Assembly (NCBI GenBank): GCA_002712005.1 | Contig: PASP01000019.1 | Coordinates: 1 to 54,572, forward strand | Length of the DNA stretch: 54,572 nt | Direction of reading: 5' to 3' | Origin: Halobacteriovoraceae bacterium | GTDB taxonomy: Bacteria > Bdellovibrionota > Bacteriovoracia > Bacteriovoracales > Bacteriovoracaceae | In this document: positions 1,445 through 53,920 of the stretch, piece after piece | Layout: each line of letters starts with the position of its first letter | Numbering within the stretch: the first letter of the stretch is position 1 | Program-made: the position numbers and the translations under genes | The notes under the pieces: model-generated | Databases searched by the model: none | What the model was told of the DNA's origin: nothing | What the model saw: the letters and a program-made list of their open reading frames with translations, nothing else

Positions 1445-1639
1445 GAAAATAAACTCCTTTTCACCTTTTTATAAAAAGCTTCCACTATCTATTATATCGG
1501 CTTAAATATCAGTAATTTAATGAAGATTTAATCATATTTAAGTGTCCAAACAATGAACACTTTCGGCCGAGTTTGACGTTGCTTTCTTCTAGTATAACCA
1601 ATTATCAGAAACTTAGTTTTGCTTTCTAGGGGGGAAAAT

Positions 1640-1655
1640 TGGCACAAACCTTGTA
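1640..1655 (+). promoter_or_regulatory. Possible sigma-54 promoter (-24/-12)
   Basis: TGGCAC-N5-TTGTA, against consensus TGGCAC-N5-TTGCW. The GG and GT dinucleotides are exactly 12 bases apart, but the -12 element has T where C is usual. The expected transcript start (about 1666) falls almost on the start codon, so the mRNA would be leaderless. It is the weakest of the five such elements in the window. Confidence 0.4.
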
Positions 1656-1666
1656 ACTCTATAGGT

Positions 1667-2191
1667 ATGATGGGCAATAAATTAAGAAATTCAAAAAATA
1701 AAGCAATTAACACCTTCACTATAGCGATTATGCTTATGACAAGCTCCCCTAGCTGGGCATTGAATGCAGATTTTGCCTTAACAGCAAGTTATAGCCGAAA
1801 TAAAAAAATATGGGGAACTTACAAGCTTAACCAAGAAAAAATGTCTATTAAAAGAGGCAAGAAAAAGTGGTTTAAAGAACCCACTCAAAGAGTGGGAGAT
1901 ATAATTATTTCTGGTGGTCACATCATATTCGTTCGAGAAACACTCGAAGAGGGAAAGACTAAAATTGTCGTGGATAAAATTCCCTACAAAAAAGTAGGAT
2001 CCTATACTTATATCAATCGAGACCCATTAGACCATGAGGTAATGAATCGTCTTTATAAACCCGATATAAGGGCGATAACACCCCACAGAGATCTACTCGA
2101 TGGAGAAATTCACTACGACAAGCTAGAGTGCAAACGAAAGAGAAGAAATTTAAAATGCACTCTCAACGGAAATCTCATTCCTCAGAGTTAA
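1667..2191 (+). CDS. Small exported protein of unknown function
   Basis: I do not recognise a family. The N-terminus is a good signal peptide: basic residues (KLRNSKNK), a hydrophobic stretch (TFTIAIMLM), then SSPSWA before the likely cleavage at A-L. The mature part (about 140 residues) is rich in Lys, Arg, Tyr and Ile with short alternating hydrophobic segments, suggesting a small beta-rich periplasmic or surface protein. Two cysteines near the end (LECKRKRRNLKCT) could form a disulfide. A longer frame from a TTG at 1619 exists, but it would put 16 residues ahead of the signal peptide. ATG 1667 or 1670 is preferred although no strong ribosome binding site is visible. A sigma-54-like element lies just upstream. 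The gene converges with purM. Confidence 0.65.
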   Translation: MMGNKLRNSKNKAINTFTIAIMLMTSSPSWALNADFALTASYSRNKKIWGTYKLNQEKMSIKRGKKKWFKEPTQRVGDIIISGGHIIFVRETLEEGKTKIVVDKIPYKKVGSYTYINRDPLDHEVMNRLYKPDIRAITPHRDLLDGEIHYDKLECKRKRRNLKCTLNGNLIPQS

Positions 2192-43220: not shown

Positions 43221-45758
43221 TTAATATCCTGTTAGTTTCAGGTACTTAGAATAAAAAGAGTGAGTCTCTACCCTTTTATGGTGAAATTTTAGCCTACCCT
43301 CATCTTCGGCATCAAAGAAGAAAATCAATCTTAATTGAGAAGAAGGCCCATCACTGTGATGAATATCATAGTTTTTTGACACGGCCTGACCAATTTGATC
43401 GGGACTGACAGATACATAGCTTAGATATTGAGTCACCGGGAAGGTAATATCATTGAAAATTTTCAATATTACTTTTGAGCAGCTCACAGAGAATTTATTG
43501 CGGACATTATGAACATAGTCATAGGGAAAATACATTCGCTCATTGGCCCTATAGAAAATTTCGCGTAATTTTGTCTCCCCTAATTGATTGGCCCTCAGCA
43601 CGGCCATTCCATCGGTTTGCATAAACTTATGTAACGGATGAACCGCAACTCCTGGGCGATCACTTTCATAGAACCAAGGTATCTCTTCAAAGCTTAACTT
43701 ATTCCCCCATACCGTTTGAAGATAATACTGCCTATCTTCGGACTTTTGATAAAGTTCAATCTCATGTCTGATTATCGCCATCTGCGGATCGTCCCAAAGA
43801 CCTAGTCTCTTTAAATCTTTAATCGTTCCCACATAAAGGGCCGCATGTATCCAGTAACCAGGAATCAGCACATCTGTATTGGCCTGCCTATCTTTTTCTA
43901 AGATAATATCTCCAGGCCTAATTCCTTCACTGGAAAAGAGAGTCTTATATACTTCGTCACGTTTCTCTGTCATATAATTCTCACGAAACATGGTTTGAAC
44001 GCGCAGATAAGGAACCCATTTTCTTTTTTTGAAAATTTGTCCCATTATATTAACAACTCCTTCTCCTAATTCAGTGCCCTTCTTTTCTAGATCATTGGCC
44101 ACGAGATCATCAAGAGCGTTCTTGATGGTGTCATGAGATAGAAAATTTTCATCTTGAGCATCATCGGCCAACTCAGACATTTCAATCATCGCCCAATTAA
44201 AAGGATGAACGTCATCACGATAACGAGCTAGGAAGTATAAAATATGAGTGAAGAATCTCTCTGGATAAGCTTTATAAAAATGCCCTTCATTATAGAAACG
44301 AGTAATATTGTAGTCGCCATGGGAAATAAGAATATCTGCAAATTGAGACCAAAGAGCAATTCTCACTCGTAAGAGATTATGAATAATATCTTGATAGCTC
44401 TTCTCTTTAAGCTTTTTCGCGAGATCTTGAGTTTGCTCAATAAAATCGTCAAGAGCATAGACCTCAAGAACCATTTGATTAAGGATTTCTTGATCTCTCT
44501 GATGGATATACTCCTTGTCTCTAGAGCTTAAATAGGATTGAAATTCGGGGAATTTGGTTTTCTTTAAATCATTCAAATAATTCTCTATAAATTGATACCT
44601 CTCTTTAAAATTTGAAAAGACTTGAGCACTTAATAGAGAACCAAGAAAGGAATGGGCACAAAATCTGTAGTGAGAATATTCCGCAAACGAGCAAAATTCA
44701 TCTTGTAGACGAAATCGTTTAAAAGGAATTTTATTATCTGGAGGAAGTAAATTTCTTAAATGAAGATTTTCCTTTAGCTTCCAAGCGTTCAATTTTGTTT
44801 TACGAGCTCTAAGTTCATGAAAACGATCATGAGAACCAGAACGCTGACGAAGTCGTATGCCAGAACGATTTCTTGAGGAAGGTCGGCCTAGTTCTGAATG
44901 CTTTAGAGTAGCATCTAAGCTCTCCCATACAACCTTGGCCATATGATAATCACGAGTATGGTAATTCATTGTAGAAGACTTCTTTAATCGTTTTGAAAGT
45001 TCCTTAAAGAAGGAGGGAAGAACTCTCTTCTTTTTAGAGTCTATATCGAGAGGATATTGAATAAACTCGCGAGAAAATTCACTTTGGAGCCGAAAGATCT
45101 CATCTTTTGATCTAACAGAAAGATTCGACTTTAGCCTGAGTTGATTAATTTGATTTATATTCTCTTCTAGCGCCTCTAACTGCTCTTGGGAAGTGAGGTT
45201 GAAGTCTAGAGTTATGAAAATACTTTCAGTAACTTCATTAGATTCGGTATTGAATTCTTTATTTAACTTTTCATTTACACGGTGTTTCATGCCTTCCTTT
45301 AAATCCACTCTAAGATAGACCTTAGAGAGAAAAGCAAGATCTTCTTGTTCAAACTCTTCAATAAGTTTTCCTCGTAATCGGGGAATTTCTTTCACAAGAG
45401 ATAGCTTATCAATATCGGCAAACTTAATATTATAGACTTTATCTAAGCTCACTAATTTTATTTCCTGCTCACGAAATAGAATACGATAAGGCTTTTGTTT
45501 GAAGTTATAGTGAACCAATTCACGATAGGGAAAGAGAACCGTTTTCCCAGGAACCTCTTTAGCGTAGCTATTACTTAAGAATAAGATATGAATAAAAAGA
45601 GAGCAAAGAACACCCCATAAAAGCACAAGTTCCCTAAAACTTTGGAACTCTCCTTTTATAGTCAGTTCTCTTACCTTAATAGATCTATATTCAAAATATT
45701 TTTTGGGGCTGCCCAAGAAATGACTCCTCATTATTATAAAGAAATTTATATTCTCCAT
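43221..45758 (-). CDS. Large exported protein with YiiX-type permuted papain domain
   Basis: A hydrophobic segment (LVLLWGVLCSLFIHILFLS, residues about 44-62) ending NSYA-KE looks like a late signal peptide. The first 550 residues match nothing I know and are highly charged. The C-terminal 250 residues resemble the YiiX/YebB permuted NlpC/P60 family: GDIILEKDRQ, the catalytic His in GYWIHAALYVG (about residue 638), then PYDYVHNVR and the Cys in FSVSCSKVIL (about 760), His preceding Cys as in the permuted order. It may cleave peptidoglycan or amide/ester bonds. The start is uncertain: ATG 45758, ATG 45731, or TTG 45716 with GAGGAG ahead. A sigma-54-like promoter lies upstream. Confidence 0.72.
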   Translation of the reverse strand: MENINFFIIMRSHFLGSPKKYFEYRSIKVRELTIKGEFQSFRELVLLWGVLCSLFIHILFLSNSYAKEVPGKTVLFPYRELVHYNFKQKPYRILFREQEIKLVSLDKVYNIKFADIDKLSLVKEIPRLRGKLIEEFEQEDLAFLSKVYLRVDLKEGMKHRVNEKLNKEFNTESNEVTESIFITLDFNLTSQEQLEALEENINQINQLRLKSNLSVRSKDEIFRLQSEFSREFIQYPLDIDSKKKRVLPSFFKELSKRLKKSSTMNYHTRDYHMAKVVWESLDATLKHSELGRPSSRNRSGIRLRQRSGSHDRFHELRARKTKLNAWKLKENLHLRNLLPPDNKIPFKRFRLQDEFCSFAEYSHYRFCAHSFLGSLLSAQVFSNFKERYQFIENYLNDLKKTKFPEFQSYLSSRDKEYIHQRDQEILNQMVLEVYALDDFIEQTQDLAKKLKEKSYQDIIHNLLRVRIALWSQFADILISHGDYNITRFYNEGHFYKAYPERFFTHILYFLARYRDDVHPFNWAMIEMSELADDAQDENFLSHDTIKNALDDLVANDLEKKGTELGEGVVNIMGQIFKKRKWVPYLRVQTMFRENYMTEKRDEVYKTLFSSEGIRPGDIILEKDRQANTDVLIPGYWIHAALYVGTIKDLKRLGLWDDPQMAIIRHEIELYQKSEDRQYYLQTVWGNKLSFEEIPWFYESDRPGVAVHPLHKFMQTDGMAVLRANQLGETKLREIFYRANERMYFPYDYVHNVRNKFSVSCSKVILKIFNDITFPVTQYLSYVSVSPDQIGQAVSKNYDIHHSDGPSSQLRLIFFFDAEDEGRLKFHHKRVETHSFYSKYLKLTGY

Positions 45759-45776
45759 CTTTTTATTGTATAAAGG

Positions 45777-45792
45777 TGCAAAGTAAGGGCCA
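45777..45792 (-). promoter_or_regulatory. Sigma-54 promoter for the YiiX-domain gene
   Basis: TGGCCC-N5-TTGCA on the minus strand with GG and GC exactly 12 bases apart. The expected transcript start is about 45766, just before the possible starts of the gene. Confidence 0.65.
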
Positions 45793-45899
45793 AGCTGGAA
45801 ATAACGAGAAAACCATAAGAATACAACAAGAAGGCCAAACAGGGTTTTAGGCTTTTATTCAATTTGTAATGTTAGGAAAATGAAAGAGATTAGAGAACG

Positions 45900-45925
45900 A
45901 GGTGTTGATTTTTTTTTCAACACCT
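45900..45925 (-). terminator. Hairpin after the 165-residue exported-protein gene
   Basis: AGGTGTTGA and TCAACACCT make a nine-pair stem with an eight-base T (plus strand) loop, 17 bases after the stop. On the minus strand the loop is A8 and no U-run follows, so it is a weak or factor-dependent terminator. Confidence 0.45.
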
Positions 45926-45942
45926 ATCTAAATAATAGACGA

Positions 45943-46440
45943 TTATGGAATAGAGCCAACTTCCACAGCTCCCTCTTGAAAGCCGATACCAATGGCCTCT
46001 TCATACTCTGTAAATTTAAAGAGCTTAGGGATAATCATTTGTCCCACACGAACTCGGTCCTCTAGTGGGCCGTCCTTATCTAATTGAGATAATTGCTTTT
46101 GGAAAGGAAATGGAATTTTATGGGCATCTATATAGATATCAACAATGCGATCATCAGCATTCTTAATTCCAATGAAGTCATTCTCCGCTTTAAGCGCCTT
46201 TAGACGATACTTAGAAGCCAGTTGAAAGAAGTAGAGTTTTCCTGTGCTAATCTCAACAATATTGAGTTTCTTTAATTGAAGATTATTATTACCAACCTTT
46301 AATAGAGAGTCATTGGCGAAAACTAGGGAAGAATTCATGAGAAAGCTTAGAGACAAGAAAACAAAGAATAAGGAAAAGACTTCTTTTCCATAATTAAATT
46401 TAAATCTCTTCAAACAATCTTTAGTATTCAACATATTCAA
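45943..46440 (-). CDS. Small exported protein of unknown function
   Basis: Basic N-terminus (KRFKFNYGK), hydrophobic core (LFFVFLSLSFLMNSSLVFA), then cleavage before NDSLL: a signal peptide of about 43 residues. The mature 120 residues are beta-rich with short charged turns; no family recognised and no cysteines after cleavage. AAGAAGAG precedes the ATG. A sigma-54-like promoter gives a 38-base leader. It is divergent from the 256-residue lipoprotein gene, which has its own sigma-54 element. Confidence 0.65.
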   Translation of the reverse strand: MNMLNTKDCLKRFKFNYGKEVFSLFFVFLSLSFLMNSSLVFANDSLLKVGNNNLQLKKLNIVEISTGKLYFFQLASKYRLKALKAENDFIGIKNADDRIVDIYIDAHKIPFPFQKQLSQLDKDGPLEDRVRVGQMIIPKLFKFTEYEEAIGIGFQEGAVEVGSIP

Positions 46441-46488
46441 CTCTTCTTAGTTAAGGTAAATCAAATCAGTAGGTAGTAGCATTTATTA

Positions 46489-46504
46489 AGCAAAAGCGAT
46501 GCCA
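46489..46504 (-). promoter_or_regulatory. Sigma-54 promoter for the 165-residue exported protein
   Basis: TGGCAT-N5-TTGCT on the minus strand, with exact 12-base spacing between GG and GC. The predicted start of transcription is about 46478, 38 bases before the ATG. Confidence 0.7.
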
Positions 46505-46691
46505 AAATGATGACTTCACCCTAAACATATCTTAATTAATTATAACCCTATTTATCTTTATTGAATCCCTAAAAGAGTTAGATCGTTAAAAAGAGGACAT
46601 AAATTATCCACCCTGTATAAGTTTTAAACACATCAAATTTCAGTCATTATAAACTTTCAATGACTTAACTCTCTTTTCACGGGTTTTATTT
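46505..46691. other. Central part of a divergent regulatory region
   Basis: No gene is seen in the 303 bases between the two divergent envelope genes. The stretch between the two sigma-54 elements is very AT-rich and is where an enhancer-binding activator would be expected to bind. I see no convincing palindrome in it. Confidence 0.35.
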
Positions 46692-46707
46692 TGGCATCAC
46701 TCATGCA
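46692..46707 (+). promoter_or_regulatory. Sigma-54 promoter for the 256-residue lipoprotein
   Basis: TGGCAT-N5-ATGCA with GG and GC exactly 12 bases apart. Transcription would begin near 46718, giving a 26-base leader with GAGGAG before the ATG. Confidence 0.65.
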
Positions 46708-46743
46708 TCTCTAATCACGAGAGAAATAAATGAGGAGAATAAA

Positions 46744-47514
46744 ATGAAAACAATTCGTGGCATGAAGATCTACATATTAATGATCGCTCTTCTAAGTGTT
46801 ACCACAAGTTGTGTTCAATCAACTTCAAGTAGTAAGTCAAAGAATAGCTCAACTGCTATTGCCGAAAATAATGCAGATAGTGCTGACGATTCTGAATACT
46901 ACTATGACGAAACACCTGGTGATGATGGAGATGCCTACTATGATGATGAGGATGAAGATGAGGATAATCTTCCAGGAATTCCCTATTCATCATGTGGAGT
47001 TATTTATAAACAACTTAATAATGAGAATACCTTCTTTCGTGATAGCGACGGAGACACTCTCATTGTTCAAAATTATAGCTATGAATCAGCCGCTATCCTT
47101 AATCAGGTCCAGTCTATAAGTGATACATATAGTGATGCTTATAATACTTGCTTAGAAGGTTATATCGAAAGTGGTGTTATATACTTAGAAGAAGCACAAC
47201 TTAACTCAGAAGCTGCAAATCCTTCGAGGGCCCATCAAGGAAATTACTCTTATGAATACTGTGGTTATATGGCCCATACCACCTACTCTTCAAATAACTT
47301 TACCCTGATACGTGTTGGGGGATATGATAGAAGAGTAAAAAATCAGACGGGAACCGGCTTTCCCTCTACGATTCCATCGGTTAATGAGATGATTAATTCA
47401 GAAAATGCGATAGAAGCTTGTGTCTATGCCAATAAAGCGCTTTACAAAGATACTTCTACAACATTTTATAGAACTATCGATACCTTAAGAATTGACCTCG
47501 GTGCCCTTAATTAA
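46744..47514 (+). CDS. Acidic lipoprotein of unknown function
   Basis: Lipobox SVTTSC with Cys23. A Ser-rich linker follows, then a very acidic, tyrosine-rich stretch (residues 45-75, with runs of Asp/Glu such as DDEDEDEDN). The remaining 180 residues form a globular domain with spaced cysteines (SSCGVIY, YNTCLEGY, YEYCGYM, EACVYAN) suggesting two disulfides. No family recognised. The acidic linker may bind Ca2+ or just hold the domain away from the membrane. A sigma-54 promoter lies upstream. It ends 15 bases from the convergent truA. Confidence 0.72.
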   Translation: MKTIRGMKIYILMIALLSVTTSCVQSTSSSKSKNSSTAIAENNADSADDSEYYYDETPGDDGDAYYDDEDEDEDNLPGIPYSSCGVIYKQLNNENTFFRDSDGDTLIVQNYSYESAAILNQVQSISDTYSDAYNTCLEGYIESGVIYLEEAQLNSEAANPSRAHQGNYSYEYCGYMAHTTYSSNNFTLIRVGGYDRRVKNQTGTGFPSTIPSVNEMINSENAIEACVYANKALYKDTSTTFYRTIDTLRIDLGALN

Positions 47515-47529
47515 TTGATACGAAAATAA

Positions 47530-48477
47530 TTAAGAACGTACTTCAATGGGGAAGCTGCAACTTTGATCTTGAGTTTCACTTTCCCCTGTATTCTTCCACA
47601 ATTCCATTTCAGGAAATAAATTTAAGAAATTCTTTTCATCCACTAGTCGCCTCGTTTCTTCACCAATTCTAAGTTCAGGATATTGAATATGATAGAGAAA
47701 GAGACCAGAGGCCGGTGCAATAAATCCTGGTCTATTAGTTGTATCGGGAAGAATCTCTGAATTACGCTCCAACGGAGGCTTCAACCATTCCGATAATTCT
47801 TGAAGACTGAGCTCCCCAGAACCCACCTTAACCATAGTACCAAAGAGAATACGAACCATCTGTTTCAGAAAGCCTTCCCCCTTGATGTGAAAGCAATAGA
47901 CTTCACTTGAAGCATTGAAACATTGGGGAAAAATCTCATGGGCTGCAGTAATTCGTGAATCTAGGATCTTTCTCTTGAAGCCACCAGAGGTATCTGATTT
48001 ATATTGAAAGGCTTCAAAATGATGAAGACCAATATAATGACGAGCACACTCTTTCATCAATTCTAGAGAAATAGCTCTTTCTGATTCAAGATGACCAACA
48101 AAGGGCATACCGCTTTGCTTTTTTAAACTAAAAAAATAGAGATACTCTTTAAACTGGGAGAGATGAGTAACTTTAAAACTCTTATTAATTCGCTCAAGTT
48201 GGTGAATATATATATCAGAAGGAAGAGCATCATTTAAAAGCTTCTGCATCTCAGGAGCATCGACTCTCCTAGGAATCAGCATTTTTACAACTTGCGAGAA
48301 AGCGTGAACACCACTGTCTGTACGGCTTGTGGCCTTGACATCAATGCGTCCAAATTCATAGATACTTCTTATTGTATTGAATAGAGTTTCTTGAACAGTT
48401 GGCAAATCCTTTTGTTTTTGCCAACCATGATAATTACGGCCGTTATAACTCACACGACCTAGATAGAATTTACCCAT
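47530..48477 (-). CDS. truA: tRNA pseudouridine synthase A
   Basis: Modifies U38-U40 of the tRNA anticodon arm. Catalytic Asp54 lies in SRTDSGVHAFSQV. Other family features are YNGRNYHGWQKQ at the N-terminus, FIGxxHHFEAF-type sequence (IGLHHFEAFQ), and FLKQMVRILFGTMVKVGSG. At 315 residues it is longer than the usual 245-270 because of a C-terminal extension after ASGLFLYHIQYPE. It may be co-transcribed with the small gene just upstream. Confidence 0.95.
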   Translation of the reverse strand: MGKFYLGRVSYNGRNYHGWQKQKDLPTVQETLFNTIRSIYEFGRIDVKATSRTDSGVHAFSQVVKMLIPRRVDAPEMQKLLNDALPSDIYIHQLERINKSFKVTHLSQFKEYLYFFSLKKQSGMPFVGHLESERAISLELMKECARHYIGLHHFEAFQYKSDTSGGFKRKILDSRITAAHEIFPQCFNASSEVYCFHIKGEGFLKQMVRILFGTMVKVGSGELSLQELSEWLKPPLERNSEILPDTTNRPGFIAPASGLFLYHIQYPELRIGEETRRLVDEKNFLNLFPEMELWKNTGESETQDQSCSFPIEVRS

Positions 48478-48482
48478 ATGAA

Positions 48483-48782
48483 TTACTGCATAGATATATC
48501 GAGTTGATATTCACTTGAAGTTAATTGGGACCCATTTATTTCACGCTGACTCATTCCCTCATCACTATCTAATAGGGACTTAATTTCAGCAGGAACACGA
48601 GTTGCTTTGTACTTCTTGCCAGAGACCATACGTACCCAGAAACCTTTGATGATATTGCCTTTATACATAATATTAATAGATTTTACGGAAGCAATTTGAT
48701 CAGTATTTAAAAGTATAGGGTAATCGATTCCCTCAAGACTTTGATCATTTTCACTATTTAAAACATTAAATTTGGCCAACAT
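48483..48782 (-). CDS. Small protein, possibly FlbD-like
   Basis: About 99 residues from the ATG at 48782, which has GAGG eight bases upstream. The centre (PILLNTDQIASVKSI, WVRMVSGKKYKATRVPAEI) follows the LN-x-D-x-I ... G-K-x-Y pattern of small FlbD-type proteins, but the match is loose and no flagellar gene is near. No signal peptide or membrane segment. It lies six bases upstream of truA, so the two are probably one transcript. Confidence 0.55.
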   Translation of the reverse strand: MLAKFNVLNSENDQSLEGIDYPILLNTDQIASVKSINIMYKGNIIKGFWVRMVSGKKYKATRVPAEIKSLLDSDEGMSQREINGSQLTSSEYQLDISMQ

Positions 48783-48848
48783 AGAATTATCCTCGGTTGT
48801 GCACAATTTATGTTCTTTCGGGAAAAAGATCAAAGGATGAGGGAAAAA

Positions 48849-50672
48849 TTACTCACCCTCATCTAAATATTGGTCAATTGAATCAAAGAATTCATCTGAA
48901 CTCGGGTAATAGATAGGAAGATCTCCACCTCGAACCCGTGGGGTTAGAGCACTCATATCTTCTTGATATTGCTTTATTCTCAAGACAAATTGATCACTCG
49001 TACGGTTTCTGATGAGCTCTAACTTCTGAGAAGCGATATTTTCATTTTCAAAAATTTCCCCCTCTTCAAAATAATCATAGAGAAGATCTCCTAATTGTTC
49101 ATCTTTAAACTCATCGGCCACGAGATCGATTAAAACCATGTGTGCAGCAAAGCGATAGCCATGCTCATCAAGGAGTTCCTTATTGGCCAAATGGCGATCG
49201 GCACTCTTATATTCCATTCTCATCTTAAGGCACATGGACTGTAATTGAACCTTCTTTTTGATATATTCAGGATCTTGATCCGGATCATAGGAGGGATCAA
49301 TTCTTTGATAAGCAGTATAGCGACTCAAATGAGACTCAACAAAATTATTCATAGTACTTGCCTCTTCAATAGACCAAGACCTCTCCGTTTTGTAACAATC
49401 ACTTAAAGCACTTGAAGGCATACCTAAGGTATAAACAACAAAGTCATTAAAACGATTTCCTATGGAACTAGTCACATATTGAACCCATGGATTGTCATTA
49501 TAAATAATAGTGACAGGAGTTGTGACGAGAGTAAAGAGGGCCATGGATCGCATCATCACACCATAGGGAGATACGGCCTTCGCCTGCTCTAGAACTTTTG
49601 CAGGAATGGTATACTTGGCCTGTTTTTCAACACGCTTTGATTTCCAAAATCTTAAAGTCGCCCAAAACTCGGCAACTCTTTCTTTACGACGAACAAACTT
49701 AACTGCATCTAAACGCGGCTGATTGGCCGGCGTACTCATAACTTCAGCTAAAATTTCTCTAAGGGCCTGTTGGTCCTCACTTAGCTTAGCTCTTGGTATG
49801 GAATTAAGACGTTCAGAAATCAGTTCAAGTCTTCTAAAATAAACGGCTTGATCAATCATCACATCATATATGCGGGACTTCTTGAATACTTCATCAATTA
49901 CATTTTGAGAAAATGTAAGGACAACTTCCTTTTCCTTCTCTTCAATAAATTGCTTTAAATCATCCACTGTCTCAAAATAGATTTCACTCTCAGCAATTTC
50001 ACCTTCTTTAGTTACGTAGGGAACCGAAACATCTTTGGGGAAATTATCTTTTTTAAAGCGTCGATCATTTTTAATACGATCTCTGAGTCGCTCTAGTGTA
50101 GATCTAACTTCAAATCCATGATCGATCACACGATCAAATCTTTGTTTATAATTCTGAACATGCTCAACCCAACTCAGAACGTCCTCAATCGCCTCTCTCT
50201 CGTGCGAACCGAAGTCTAAATCATCATCCGCTACTTTCAAGATCGTACTAAAAGTATCGACATCTCCTACCACCTTATTCTGAGTTTGAAATAGGGCCGG
50301 AACATGGTGAGACTTATTCAATCTTCTTAGCTTTCTATAGAAACGAGTATAAGGAAGTTTTTCAGACTGCCTCTCTTCGTTATGGGCACTCCAAAACATC
50401 TTCTTAATGCCTTCGAGATTTCCTTCCTTTATAAGTTGGGACATGGATTTAGAACGAGAACGCTTAACCAAAATATATTTCATGGTATTAGCACAACTTC
50501 CCACAGAGCTAGGCTCACGATGTACGTCTTCCACGACCAAGCTCTTCTTACTTCCTTGGGGAGAATAAGAACTTCCTACCTTATTAAATGAATTCGAAGT
50601 ACAAGAAATTCCCAATATAAACAAACAGAGAAAACTAAGAAAAACTAAGCGCGAATTTGATCGATTTATCAT
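48849..50672 (-). CDS. Large lipoprotein of unknown function
   Basis: Lipobox ILGISC with Cys24. About 580 mature residues, strongly charged and mostly helical, with repeated Arg/Lys/Glu heptad-like stretches (residues 180-330) and a short hydrophobic patch (MALFTLVTTPVTIIY, around residue 385). The last 100 residues are acidic (DYFEEGEIFENEN, SIDQYLDEGE). No catalytic motif seen. GAGGAGT precedes the ATG. It is divergent from the 990-residue lipoprotein, with 275 bases between, but has no sigma-54 element of its own that I can find. Confidence 0.7.
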   Translation of the reverse strand: MINRSNSRLVFLSFLCLFILGISCTSNSFNKVGSSYSPQGSKKSLVVEDVHREPSSVGSCANTMKYILVKRSRSKSMSQLIKEGNLEGIKKMFWSAHNEERQSEKLPYTRFYRKLRRLNKSHHVPALFQTQNKVVGDVDTFSTILKVADDDLDFGSHEREAIEDVLSWVEHVQNYKQRFDRVIDHGFEVRSTLERLRDRIKNDRRFKKDNFPKDVSVPYVTKEGEIAESEIYFETVDDLKQFIEEKEKEVVLTFSQNVIDEVFKKSRIYDVMIDQAVYFRRLELISERLNSIPRAKLSEDQQALREILAEVMSTPANQPRLDAVKFVRRKERVAEFWATLRFWKSKRVEKQAKYTIPAKVLEQAKAVSPYGVMMRSMALFTLVTTPVTIIYNDNPWVQYVTSSIGNRFNDFVVYTLGMPSSALSDCYKTERSWSIEEASTMNNFVESHLSRYTAYQRIDPSYDPDQDPEYIKKKVQLQSMCLKMRMEYKSADRHLANKELLDEHGYRFAAHMVLIDLVADEFKDEQLGDLLYDYFEEGEIFENENIASQKLELIRNRTSDQFVLRIKQYQEDMSALTPRVRGGDLPIYYPSSDEFFDSIDQYLDEGE

Positions 50673-50881
50673 GAATAAAACTCCTCTATACCTAGGGGTT
50701 ATCGGTATTTTTTCCCTATTTTTTGAGCTTAATACTCCAAATCTCTAAATAAATTCGTATTTTTAGATAGTTATTTACTGTCTAAACTTTAAACAGTGTA
50801 AAAACTTTTTCAAAATTAACCTAAGTCCAACCTAATAGCCCCCATAATAGGGCCTCTAGATGCCTTTGAGGAAAGCCACTT

Positions 50882-50897
50882 TGGCACACTCTTTGCT
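50882..50897 (+). promoter_or_regulatory. Sigma-54 promoter for the 990-residue lipoprotein
   Basis: TGGCAC-N5-TTGCT, a full match to the -24/-12 consensus with exact spacing. Transcription should start near 50908, leaving a 40-base leader with AAGGA before the ATG. It is the best such element in the window. Confidence 0.8.
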
Positions 50898-50947
50898 CTA
50901 TATATTAGTGAAAAGAAAAGAGAACTAACGGAAAAAGGACTTGTATA

Positions 50948-53920
50948 ATGGTACATTTCAATCATTCTACTCACATTTTTAAGCACTTAGGGATGATACT
51001 CATCCTCTTAGGCTTGTTTTCCTGTAAGAGTGATGTAGAGGATAAGACCCAAGAGGCCAATCAAAGTGTCATTAATGTAGACAGTTTGAAGGTAACAAGT
51101 CTCCAAAATATTAGGGCCGACAAATCCGAAACTTCAATTATAGTGAAAAAGTATTACGCTATTTCGGCCTGTCTTTCTGAAAATAACTTAGGTCAAAAGC
51201 TTGATAGAAGGCCTGTTGAAGTACAAGGTACTCCCCTACAATCCAATGTCACTGACCCATCAGGATGTATCTTTTGGGAACATACATTCAATATGGACTA
51301 TAGTGGTAAGGATCGATGTCAAATTCTTAAACAAGTGATCAAAATACCAGGGTCACGTATGACGAAAACCCTAAACTATGCCATCGATACCATTACCGAT
51401 CAAATTATCGATCTTGAGCGCGGTAAAGGTTGTACCGTCATGAATGAAAATGGCGATATTAAAACTTTGGCCCAATCAGGTGGTGAACTCATTTTAGAAA
51501 AGGTGAATCTCTACTGGGCCGGAGAAGAAGATGAGAAACGCTCAGATGTACGAACTCTCACTTATAGAACGAATATCCAATCATGTCTTAAGGCCCGTGT
51601 ATCTAATACGGCCTTAACGAATACCCTAATCAATATTCAAATTAGAGATCGCTCTAATCTTCATGATGCAATTAATATTGATAATGTTAGAACGAATGAA
51701 GCAGGTTGTTTCGATCGTCTCTTCTCAAGTCCTTATGAGCAATTCTCATATTCCCATTGGTTGGAGAAGGACATTGTCATTGAAGTGGTAGAAGGACCCC
51801 TACAGGGTGCACGTACCGGTACAATGGTTTATGTAAACCCTTATGAAATTACACGTACGTTTTTTGGAATCGATAGCCGTTGGGATCACCCAATGGAAAA
51901 TCCATTACCTAGAAATAAGAAAATCCATATTGATGGTGTTATGTATATTCAAATTGGTAATGATGTAGAAAACTTTGATGTTAATGATTATTTAAATCTT
52001 ACAGTAAGTAAGTCTTATCAAATTGTTCTTAATCCAAGAATTGATCGTGGACACCGTTTTACTAAGGACGCTGCTCGCTATGTAAAAATGCACGATGGGC
52101 GTTTTCGTCTTAAATTTATGATTCTCGCCCCTGATAAAGCGGATATCGAAATTGATGAAACTAATTTTGAAGACTTCACTTATATTACAGGTGCGGAGAG
52201 AATCGTTGAAGTAAAAGACGGAATTATCAACTCTCTTATTAGTATCCCAGTTAAGCTTCAAGATCTACCTAGATTGGCCACGAGAACAGTAAGTGTTTTC
52301 AAACTTGAGCCTATCACCGATACAGGTATCATTAGCTCAACCGTTACTGGATTCTTTAAAGCAAAAATTGCGTGGATTAAAACAAATGTAATCCAATCAG
52401 ACACTCTTCAAACTTCAGAAGAGCAACTCTCCTACCGCATGGACTCAAGAGAAGCTAAGAATGACGCTCAAAGTGTGAGTGATCAAATCTCTAGCAATAT
52501 TGAGTCTGTCCTCAGTGAGAATATGGCCGAGCCTAGTAAAGGTAGTGAAACCTTAGATTCTATCGAACTTGAGGGAGTTGTTACAGATGAAACAAAACTT
52601 AAGTACAAGAAATGTATTGAATATCTCTTTACCAAGGCCAAAGACGGTGTTGACCAAACAGGTACAGATAAATGTGATTTCAATAAAGGAAGTGTAGAAG
52701 TTAAAGAACTCAAAAGTAATCCTTTTGCACTAAGTGAAGATTCAAAAAGTATCTTCGTTAATAAGCAATTAGCTCATATGTACCCTAACCTCATCAGTGA
52801 GAGCACATTATCTAAAGAAGAAAGAGATGCTCAAAGTGTTGAAGTTGTAGAGGCCACAAATTCTGAACAAAATGTAGAAGAAGAGTCTTCATCTTCTAAG
52901 AAATTTAATCTACCAGAAGGTGTGATTAACGGAATCTATGATAAATTGAGAAATAACGATCTCACAAAAGAAGACAAACCGTATATGGCGGTTATGGCCC
53001 TTGTGTGTCGTGATGCTTTTCCAGAGCCAGAGCAAGGTGAAGGTATCCTCGCTCGCTGGTTAGGACGCTCAGAGAACCCTGACTACACTCGTTGTATTAG
53101 GAACCCTGAGAAGTTCTTTAATATCGATGAATTCATGCACTCTAAAAAAGTTACGGATATCCAACCTCGATACTCTACAGGTTTTAACTTGAGTATTGGT
53201 GCAAGGTTCTCAACTTCATATGGAACAAATAGAAGTACCTATATGTCTAAACGAGTTGGAGCTGATCTTGGAGTTAAACTTCCTCTTGGGGAATATTTCG
53301 GTGCAGGTATCAAGCTCTTTGACCTCTCTTATACTTGGAGTGAAGGTGAAAGTGAGAATGAAAACTGGTCTGATGATGTAAGCACAAGTCGTTCACTAGC
53401 GATCGAGAAATTTGTTATCGACGTAAATGGTGAGTTCGAAAAATGTATCCTTTTCACAGGAAAGGACTATATCAGTTCAGACTCTCTACGTGCCATCGGT
53501 ATGGCCGCAGGAATGGGTGGAGCTCCGGTACTCCTACCGAGCCAGTATAAGCAGTATAATACCAAATTAGATAAGCAATACTATCTCTGTGATCAACCGA
53601 AGCCAACTAAAGTAAGTGAGCCTTGGTATTACATCCAAGCAGATGTTCCAAGTGCGCCGATGCTATCGGATAACATGGGACCAACAGAGAAGAAGCTCAT
53701 CAAGGTCCTTCGTGGTGAAGAAACCTTCAATCAGTTCAAACAACTCTTTGAAGATGAAACGAAGGTCTATCTTCTTGAGTCACAAAATAACTCAGAGACA
53801 CCTGATGAGAAACTCTACGAGAACTGGGGTCACCTTCTAGAGATCGTACCCCCACCATCAGCTGCGAACAAGCTCTTGATCAATAACTATCAAGGGGCCT
53901 TTCCAGGAACTATTCAATAG
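50948..53920 (+). CDS. Very large lipoprotein with duplicated cysteine-paired domain
   Basis: Lipobox GLFSC with Cys26. Two similar N-terminal domains are visible: one with Cys75 and Cys107 (ISACLSENN ... TDPSGCIFW), one with Cys213 and Cys254 (IQSCLKARV ... TNEAGCFDR). Both have a beta-rich, Ig-like look. A Ser/Glu-rich low-complexity linker lies around residues 495-655 (TNSEQNVEEESSSSKK). The C-terminal third has Gly/Tyr/Ser-rich alternating strands (RYSTGFNLSIGARFSTSYG) and more cysteines. No family recognised. It is probably a surface or outer-membrane lipoprotein. A perfect sigma-54 element lies upstream. The stop is two bases from the left end of an IS. Confidence 0.75.
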   Translation: MVHFNHSTHIFKHLGMILILLGLFSCKSDVEDKTQEANQSVINVDSLKVTSLQNIRADKSETSIIVKKYYAISACLSENNLGQKLDRRPVEVQGTPLQSNVTDPSGCIFWEHTFNMDYSGKDRCQILKQVIKIPGSRMTKTLNYAIDTITDQIIDLERGKGCTVMNENGDIKTLAQSGGELILEKVNLYWAGEEDEKRSDVRTLTYRTNIQSCLKARVSNTALTNTLINIQIRDRSNLHDAINIDNVRTNEAGCFDRLFSSPYEQFSYSHWLEKDIVIEVVEGPLQGARTGTMVYVNPYEITRTFFGIDSRWDHPMENPLPRNKKIHIDGVMYIQIGNDVENFDVNDYLNLTVSKSYQIVLNPRIDRGHRFTKDAARYVKMHDGRFRLKFMILAPDKADIEIDETNFEDFTYITGAERIVEVKDGIINSLISIPVKLQDLPRLATRTVSVFKLEPITDTGIISSTVTGFFKAKIAWIKTNVIQSDTLQTSEEQLSYRMDSREAKNDAQSVSDQISSNIESVLSENMAEPSKGSETLDSIELEGVVTDETKLKYKKCIEYLFTKAKDGVDQTGTDKCDFNKGSVEVKELKSNPFALSEDSKSIFVNKQLAHMYPNLISESTLSKEERDAQSVEVVEATNSEQNVEEESSSSKKFNLPEGVINGIYDKLRNNDLTKEDKPYMAVMALVCRDAFPEPEQGEGILARWLGRSENPDYTRCIRNPEKFFNIDEFMHSKKVTDIQPRYSTGFNLSIGARFSTSYGTNRSTYMSKRVGADLGVKLPLGEYFGAGIKLFDLSYTWSEGESENENWSDDVSTSRSLAIEKFVIDVNGEFEKCILFTGKDYISSDSLRAIGMAAGMGGAPVLLPSQYKQYNTKLDKQYYLCDQPKPTKVSEPWYYIQADVPSAPMLSDNMGPTEKKLIKVLRGEETFNQFKQLFEDETKVYLLESQNNSETPDEKLYENWGHLLEIVPPPSAANKLLINNYQGAFPGTIQ

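Follow-up and report, generated by a model that had tools for sequence, protein, structure and literature searches.

Four strong sigma-54 −24/−12 promoters stand ahead of genes for lipoproteins and exported proteins in a 54,572-nucleotide stretch of DNA from a Halobacteriovoraceae bacterium (the window, contig C20 of a 3.96-Mb assembly). Overall, they are probably best explained as RpoN promoters of an export-biased regulon of the Bacteriovoracaceae in which a common palindrome serves as the site of a shared activator. The conserved sigma-54 (RpoN) regulon would comprise mostly lipoproteins, secreted proteases or amidases, and envelope proteins of unknown function. The palindrome would most likely be bound by one AAA+ enhancer-binding protein that remodels sigma-54 polymerase once its receiver domain is activated, and the best candidate for this binder is a FleQ-like response regulator encoded next to flgB-flgC-fliE-fliF. 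Its switch would be phosphorylation, and the programme may serve prey contact or digestion. The evidence is computational and comprises the promoter motifs, their conservation, the export bias of the targets, the palindrome with its spacing, and the co-occurrence of palindrome and activator.

Sigma-54 promoters in the window and at orthologous loci

A sequence-only reading of the window had listed five −24/−12 elements, all in front of exported-protein genes, and had proposed an envelope programme under a shared activator encoded outside the window. We scored these with a weight matrix built from the published consensus (maximum 22.6). The coordinates and strands of the five 16-mers proved exact and four of them are strong; the fifth, at 1640, is weak and has GT in place of the GC, which is nearly invariant in −24/−12 elements. 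The elements and the genes behind them are as follows.

1640..1655, +: doubtful, weak sigma-54-like element TGGCACAAACCTTGTA, score 12.0, GT where GC is expected
1670..2191, +: exported protein with signal peptide (gene caller), behind the weak 1640 element
43221..45758, −: exported protein (845 aa) with a C-terminal peptidase C92 (permuted papain-like amidase) domain (PF05708, 4e-14); likely start TTG 45716, preceded by GAGGAG (sequence, gene caller)
45777..45792, −: sigma-54 promoter TGGCCCTTACTTTGCA, score 16.0
45943..46440, −: 165-aa exported protein, start TTG 46440 or ATG 46434
46489..46504, −: sigma-54 promoter TGGCATCGCTTTTGCT, score 18.5, among the strict genome-wide matches
46692..46707, +: sigma-54 promoter TGGCATCACTCATGCA, score 15.2
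46744..47514, +: 256-aa lipoprotein, lipobox VTTSC, with orthologs syntenic with the 990-aa gene
50882..50897, +: sigma-54 −24/−12 promoter TGGCACACTCTTTGCT, score 19.4, predicted start near 50907
50948..53920, +: 990-aa lipoprotein, lipobox LFSC, of a Bacteriovoracaceae family, with predicted N-terminal macroglobulin/Ig-like beta domains

All four strong sites fit the context TGGCAY-N5-TTGCW (15.2–19.4 of 22.6), and the 1640 element fails at the GC. The GG and GC are 10 bases apart; the 12 bases given for this gap in the earlier reading are the distance from −24 to −12. The 4.1 kb of intergenic DNA in the window holds 4 matches scoring at least 14, whereas 200 dinucleotide shuffles of it average 0.015. 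Three of the four strong sites are also separate strict TGGCN7TTGCW matches, and the density of such matches in the window exceeds the genome average (p = 0.003, one intragenic match counted too). The remaining window matches scoring at least 12.5 (49161, −, and 17354, −) both lie within coding sequence and are probably due to chance, so the claim that the housekeeping genes of the window are free of the element holds. The observation of four −24/−12 promoters is confirmed.

The genome encodes one rpoN (PF04552, 2e-66), so the objection that its absence would have raised falls away. Also present are several full-length receiver-AAA-HTH activators with GAFTGA, at least five in number, and two more AAA family members that lack this motif. 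Pattern searches of the whole genome returned 18 matches to TGGCAYN5TTGCW versus 2 for the reversed control, and 47 versus 17 for the looser TGGCN7TTGCW; matrix scans covered 849 kb of stretches. Most of 58 relatives show the same motif excess. For their size, four genomes of the same phylum and other families (G039, G047, G051, and G054; 1.7–2.4 Mb) have a far larger regulon, with 49–77 strict sigma-54 elements and hardly any control matches.

The elements are conserved at the orthologs of two window lipoprotein genes. For the 990-aa lipoprotein, an element precedes the ortholog in five other members of the genus and in G022; for the 256-aa lipoprotein it stands before the orthologs in G002, G003, G005, and G006, and a weaker one before that in G013. 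These orthologous elements differ in their spacer letters. Paralogs in G001, G003, G005, and G006 likewise have an element ahead of them, and none was found before more distant copies of the 990-aa family (G008, G013, and G016). For the 845-aa and 165-aa proteins, no ortholog exists at the same locus, and the latter has no homologue in the other genomes searched. Nine regulon proteins of the window's genome have homologues among the sigma-54 targets of G003 or G016.

Pfam searches with the 165-, 256-, and 990-aa proteins, and with a neighboring 607-aa lipoprotein, returned no significant family. The structural model of the 990-aa lipoprotein is of medium confidence (pLDDT 65), placing several macroglobulin/Ig-like beta domains at residues 42–473 and, at low confidence, long beta hairpins at the C-terminus. 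The pore-protein matches given by Foldseek sit on these low-confidence hairpins (TM about 0.05) and were set aside; VIA-align matches (Z < 8) fit common Ig/macroglobulin-like beta domains only. An alignment query of genome contigs recovered nine loci of this family where a single-sequence query had given none, and the named carriers are Bacteriovoracaceae, including Bacteriovorax sp. BSW11_IV and Halobacteriovorax marinus.

Export bias of the sigma-54 targets

We classified the 47 TGGCN7TTGCW matches of the genome and found that the high scorers are nearly all intergenic and start-proximal, followed mostly by genes with a signal peptide or lipobox. Among genes with an upstream gap of at least 100 bp, 16 of 21 sigma-54 genes are called as encoding exported proteins versus 131 of 376 others (p = 2.5e-4). 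The signal-peptide caller is a crude, home-made one with a background of 33–35% and DAHP synthase as a known false positive; by eye, with three misses and one false call corrected, the count becomes 18/21. Across seven genomes (the window's own, G003, G009, G014, G016, G025, and G027), the figures are 83/119 versus 252/698 (odds ratio 4.1, Cochran–Mantel–Haenszel p = 1.8e-10), with background genes in the other genomes drawn from match neighborhoods. A sigma-54 regulon with a strong skew toward exported proteins thus has support genome-wide, in related genera, and from the conserved orthologous promoters.

Domains recognized among the targets are the C92 amidase of the window gene at 43221, subtilase S8, thermolysin M4, and PLD-like domains; most of the remaining targets have no Pfam match. 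The stricter claim that only exported proteins are controlled did not survive. Non-exported targets include a bifunctional DAHP synthase-chorismate mutase, a TPR protein, and a DksA/TraR zinc-finger protein that is a sigma-54 target also in G003 and G016. A further element precedes prkA/yeaG followed by a DUF444 (yeaH-type) gene (L149:9089-12279, G000:C14), prkA/yeaG being apparently split by a frameshift in the assembly. The E. coli counterpart yeaGH is a known sigma-54 target operon, and its recovery serves as a positive control. Flagellar genes were rejected as targets, since none of the 47 genome-wide matches was recognized ahead of one.

Two strong promoters, likewise at odds with that stricter claim, have no gene behind them and may drive small RNAs. 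The element TGGCACACTCCTTGCT (L169:8661-8760; G000:C2:78660 onward) is followed about 90 nt downstream by a clear intrinsic terminator and may drive a sigma-54-dependent small RNA. At L147:10400 (−; G000:C13:30399), the next ~170 nt contain a long-range complementary pair, GGCCTTGGTTC / GAACCAAGGCC. Rfam searches of three gene-less or unclear promoter loci returned no match.

A common palindrome and a FleQ-like candidate activator

At about half of the sigma-54 promoters of the genome, a 17-bp palindrome, TGTYTAAAnTTTARACA, lies 37–180 bp upstream of the −24 element. Other activators must therefore serve the half without a good palindrome. The copies in the window are as follows.

1543..1559: weak copy TGTCCAAACAATGAACA, 80 bp ahead of the 1640 element
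45925..45941: weaker palindrome TATCTAAATAATAGACG (CGTCTATTATTTAGATA on the opposite strand), 132 bp upstream of the 45777 (−) element, score 14.4
46614..46630: palindrome TGTATAAGTTTTAAACA between divergent promoters, 61 bp from 46692 (+) and 109 bp from 46489 (−), score 16.3
50779..50795: palindrome TGTCTAAACTTTAAACA, a candidate activator site 86 bp ahead of the 50882 −24 element, score 22.6

No site in 849 kb of the window's genome outscores the 50779 copy, which shares the top score and is kept at orthologous promoters; the copy at 46614–46630 is positioned to serve both divergent promoters. The palindrome provides a sequence-based candidate for the upstream activator site, and its presence at all four good promoters of the window lends support to the shared activator that had been proposed for them.

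The motif was discovered by counting dyads upstream of G016 promoters, where GTCT-N7-AGAC occurs in 6 of 31 against 0.1 expected and extends to TGTCTA-N5-TAGACA. A matrix trained solely on G003, G016, and G027 was then run on the 849 kb of the window's genome, in stretches selected around motif matches. Eleven of its 13 best matches lie 39–152 bp upstream of a −24/−12 element in the correct orientation, in territory that makes up about 1% of the DNA scanned. The matrix has a match at 16 of 30 promoters, versus 0–2 for 28 of 30 permuted matrices; the other two permuted matrices gave 13 and 16 and may be near-identical permutations. The exact palindrome has six copies in the whole genome, three at sigma-54 promoters and a fourth at a weaker one, and palindrome and element are retained together at most orthologous and paralogous promoters. 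Gaps between the two cluster near 40, 50, 59, and 68 bp, a period of ~10 bp (resultant 0.46 at 10.3 bp, n = 50, with several periods tried and orthologs non-independent), as expected if the binder must face polymerase.

The candidate binder (G000:C16:172904-174481) has a receiver, an AAA+ domain with GAFTGA, and a Fis-type HTH (PF00158, PF02954). Its top PDB match is FleQ (8p53, 3e-93), ahead of ZraR (7e-87), and its gene lies just upstream of flgB-flgC-fliE-fliF-fliG-fliH-fliI, the flagellar names being read from sequence. A shortened activator-like protein with a FlrC-type HTH and no GAFTGA is encoded between it and flgB (L165:12565-13491). Like the master regulators FleQ of Pseudomonas and FlrA of Vibrio, the candidate is an AAA+ sigma-54 activator with a Fis-type HTH and has flagellar genes as neighbors, and its recognition helix is near-identical to that of FleQ (NRTTLIEKMKKKG versus RRTTLVEKMRKYG). 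The published FleQ consensus GTCaNTAAAtTGAC (PMC6120874) is a pseudopalindrome that shares the GTC/GAC ends of the palindrome described here, which differs in its 17-bp length and inner sequence. The predicted targets also differ, being exported proteins rather than flagella. Whereas the FleQ receiver has lost phosphorylation (PMC10723142), that of the candidate keeps the EDD, SD, MT, and TKP motifs with the Asp/Thr/Lys set, for which reason we class it as FleQ-like and not as FleQ. The retained phosphorylation residues make a partner kinase likely, and no sensor kinase was identified next to the gene. Of the c-di-GMP contacts of FleQ, R185 and R334 are kept in the alignment, and R144 and E330 are N and Y.

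Of 37 family genomes, 28 encode an ortholog of the FleQ-like protein, and the helix NRTTLIEK is invariant or nearly so among these orthologs. The exact palindrome numbers 187 versus 43 for the control in these 28 genomes, and 17 versus 11 in the 9 without the protein, so that its excess tracks the activator (Mann–Whitney p = 0.004, a statistic that ignores phylogeny). The case for the FleQ-like protein as binder comes from its recognition helix and the co-occurrence, and its odds are about even. Binding by any of the other full-length activators with GAFTGA is less likely; among them, relatives of the L021 type appear, from the match list, to be present in all groups. In three genomes without the FleQ-like protein, the palindrome occurs at 3 of 32 sigma-54 elements, which still favor exported genes. 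The export bias is therefore not due to this protein alone, and we rejected it as the cause of the whole link between sigma-54 and export.

Alternative explanations and relation to known regulons

The sigma-54 promoters could be real and the palindrome the site of another regulator, a sigma-70 activator or a repressor, layered on top. In G020 (loci L297–L316), 20 of 20 exact palindromes are intergenic, and nearly all lie 50–190 bp ahead of genes for exported proteins. Few of them, however, come with a −24/−12 element, and some of the promoters look sigma-70-like by eye; some palindromes of G016 and G027 also precede exported genes without an element. The binder thus need not act via sigma-54. 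Either it also works with sigma-70 or another protein binds the site. The palindrome also precedes the DAHP synthase-chorismate mutase gene in two genera (L179:8452-9787; L330 and L331 of G027) and AroA in G027. This placement suggests a possible connection with the synthesis of aromatic amino acids and, in G027, recalls TyrR-type control. Against a separate regulator stand the ~10-bp helical phasing of the gap to the −24 element, the tracking of the palindrome with the FleQ-like activator, and the precedent of FleQ itself, which uses sigma-54 at flagellar promoters and sigma-70 at surface-matrix promoters such as pel (PMC10723142). We consider a separate regulator unlikely. The gene for the 607-aa lipoprotein (48849–50672, −) diverges from that for the 990-aa protein. 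Its start is 107 bp away from the 50779 palindrome, no −24/−12 element precedes it on its own strand, and it may be co-regulated in the manner seen in G020.

We regard as quite unlikely an ordinary mixed regulon, in which several activators operate and the bias reflects no dedicated programme but the general role of sigma-54 at the cell exterior. In its favor, such a tendency across phyla was described by Francke et al. (2011; PMC3162934), the genome holds at least five GAFTGA activators, and the bias persists in genomes lacking the FleQ-like protein. However, the palindrome common to 16 of 30 promoters and the nine regulon proteins whose homologues in other genera or species also follow sigma-54 elements point to a coherent core. 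A chance origin of the four strong motifs in AT-rich intergenic DNA is ruled out by the shuffles, the reversed-pattern controls, the retention of elements at orthologous loci despite changing spacer letters, and the recovery of a known sigma-54 target, and has a negligible probability, with only the 1640 element falling within the chance range.

The preferred reading, an export-biased RpoN regulon with a shared activator, has partial precedents. The sigma-54/CtcC regulon of Chlamydia was shown by experiment to be rich in membrane and secreted components (PMC7482065), in an organism that also alternates between intracellular and extracellular stages; the lineage and gene content are unrelated to those considered here, where the regulon is predicted. 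The Rrp2-RpoN-RpoS pathway of Borrelia places surface lipoproteins under sigma-54 and a single NtrC-like activator, but indirectly, by way of RpoS (PMC3037356), whereas the elements described here lie directly ahead of lipoprotein genes. Francke et al. tied sigma-54 to the bacterial exterior (envelope, lipoprotein, secretion) mainly through biosynthesis and transport genes, in a main text without mention of Bdellovibrio (PMC3162934); in the regulon predicted here, it is the exported proteins that are targeted, with a common palindrome. The suggestion of an undescribed programme therefore holds only in part, since sigma-54 control of the exterior and the surface programmes of Chlamydia and Borrelia are already published. 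The literature searched contained no description of a sigma-54 regulon in predatory bacteria of the Bacteriovoracaceae. What appears to be new is the regulon in this family, together with its common palindrome and the activator proposed for it.

The regulation of surface and secreted proteins in predatory Bacteriovoracaceae is little known. As a tentative possibility, a FleQ-type activator encoded in the flagellar locus would use one conserved palindrome to govern the secretome as its master switch, with the same site driving sigma-54 promoters in G016 and the window's genus and non-sigma-54 promoters in G020, so that the regulon would have changed its sigma factor and kept its activator. The target list, the defined site, and the single candidate activator make the question of one switch directly testable in Bacteriovorax or Halobacteriovorax, and the contrast between genera offers a natural example of a possible swap of sigma factor in a regulon that retained its activator site.
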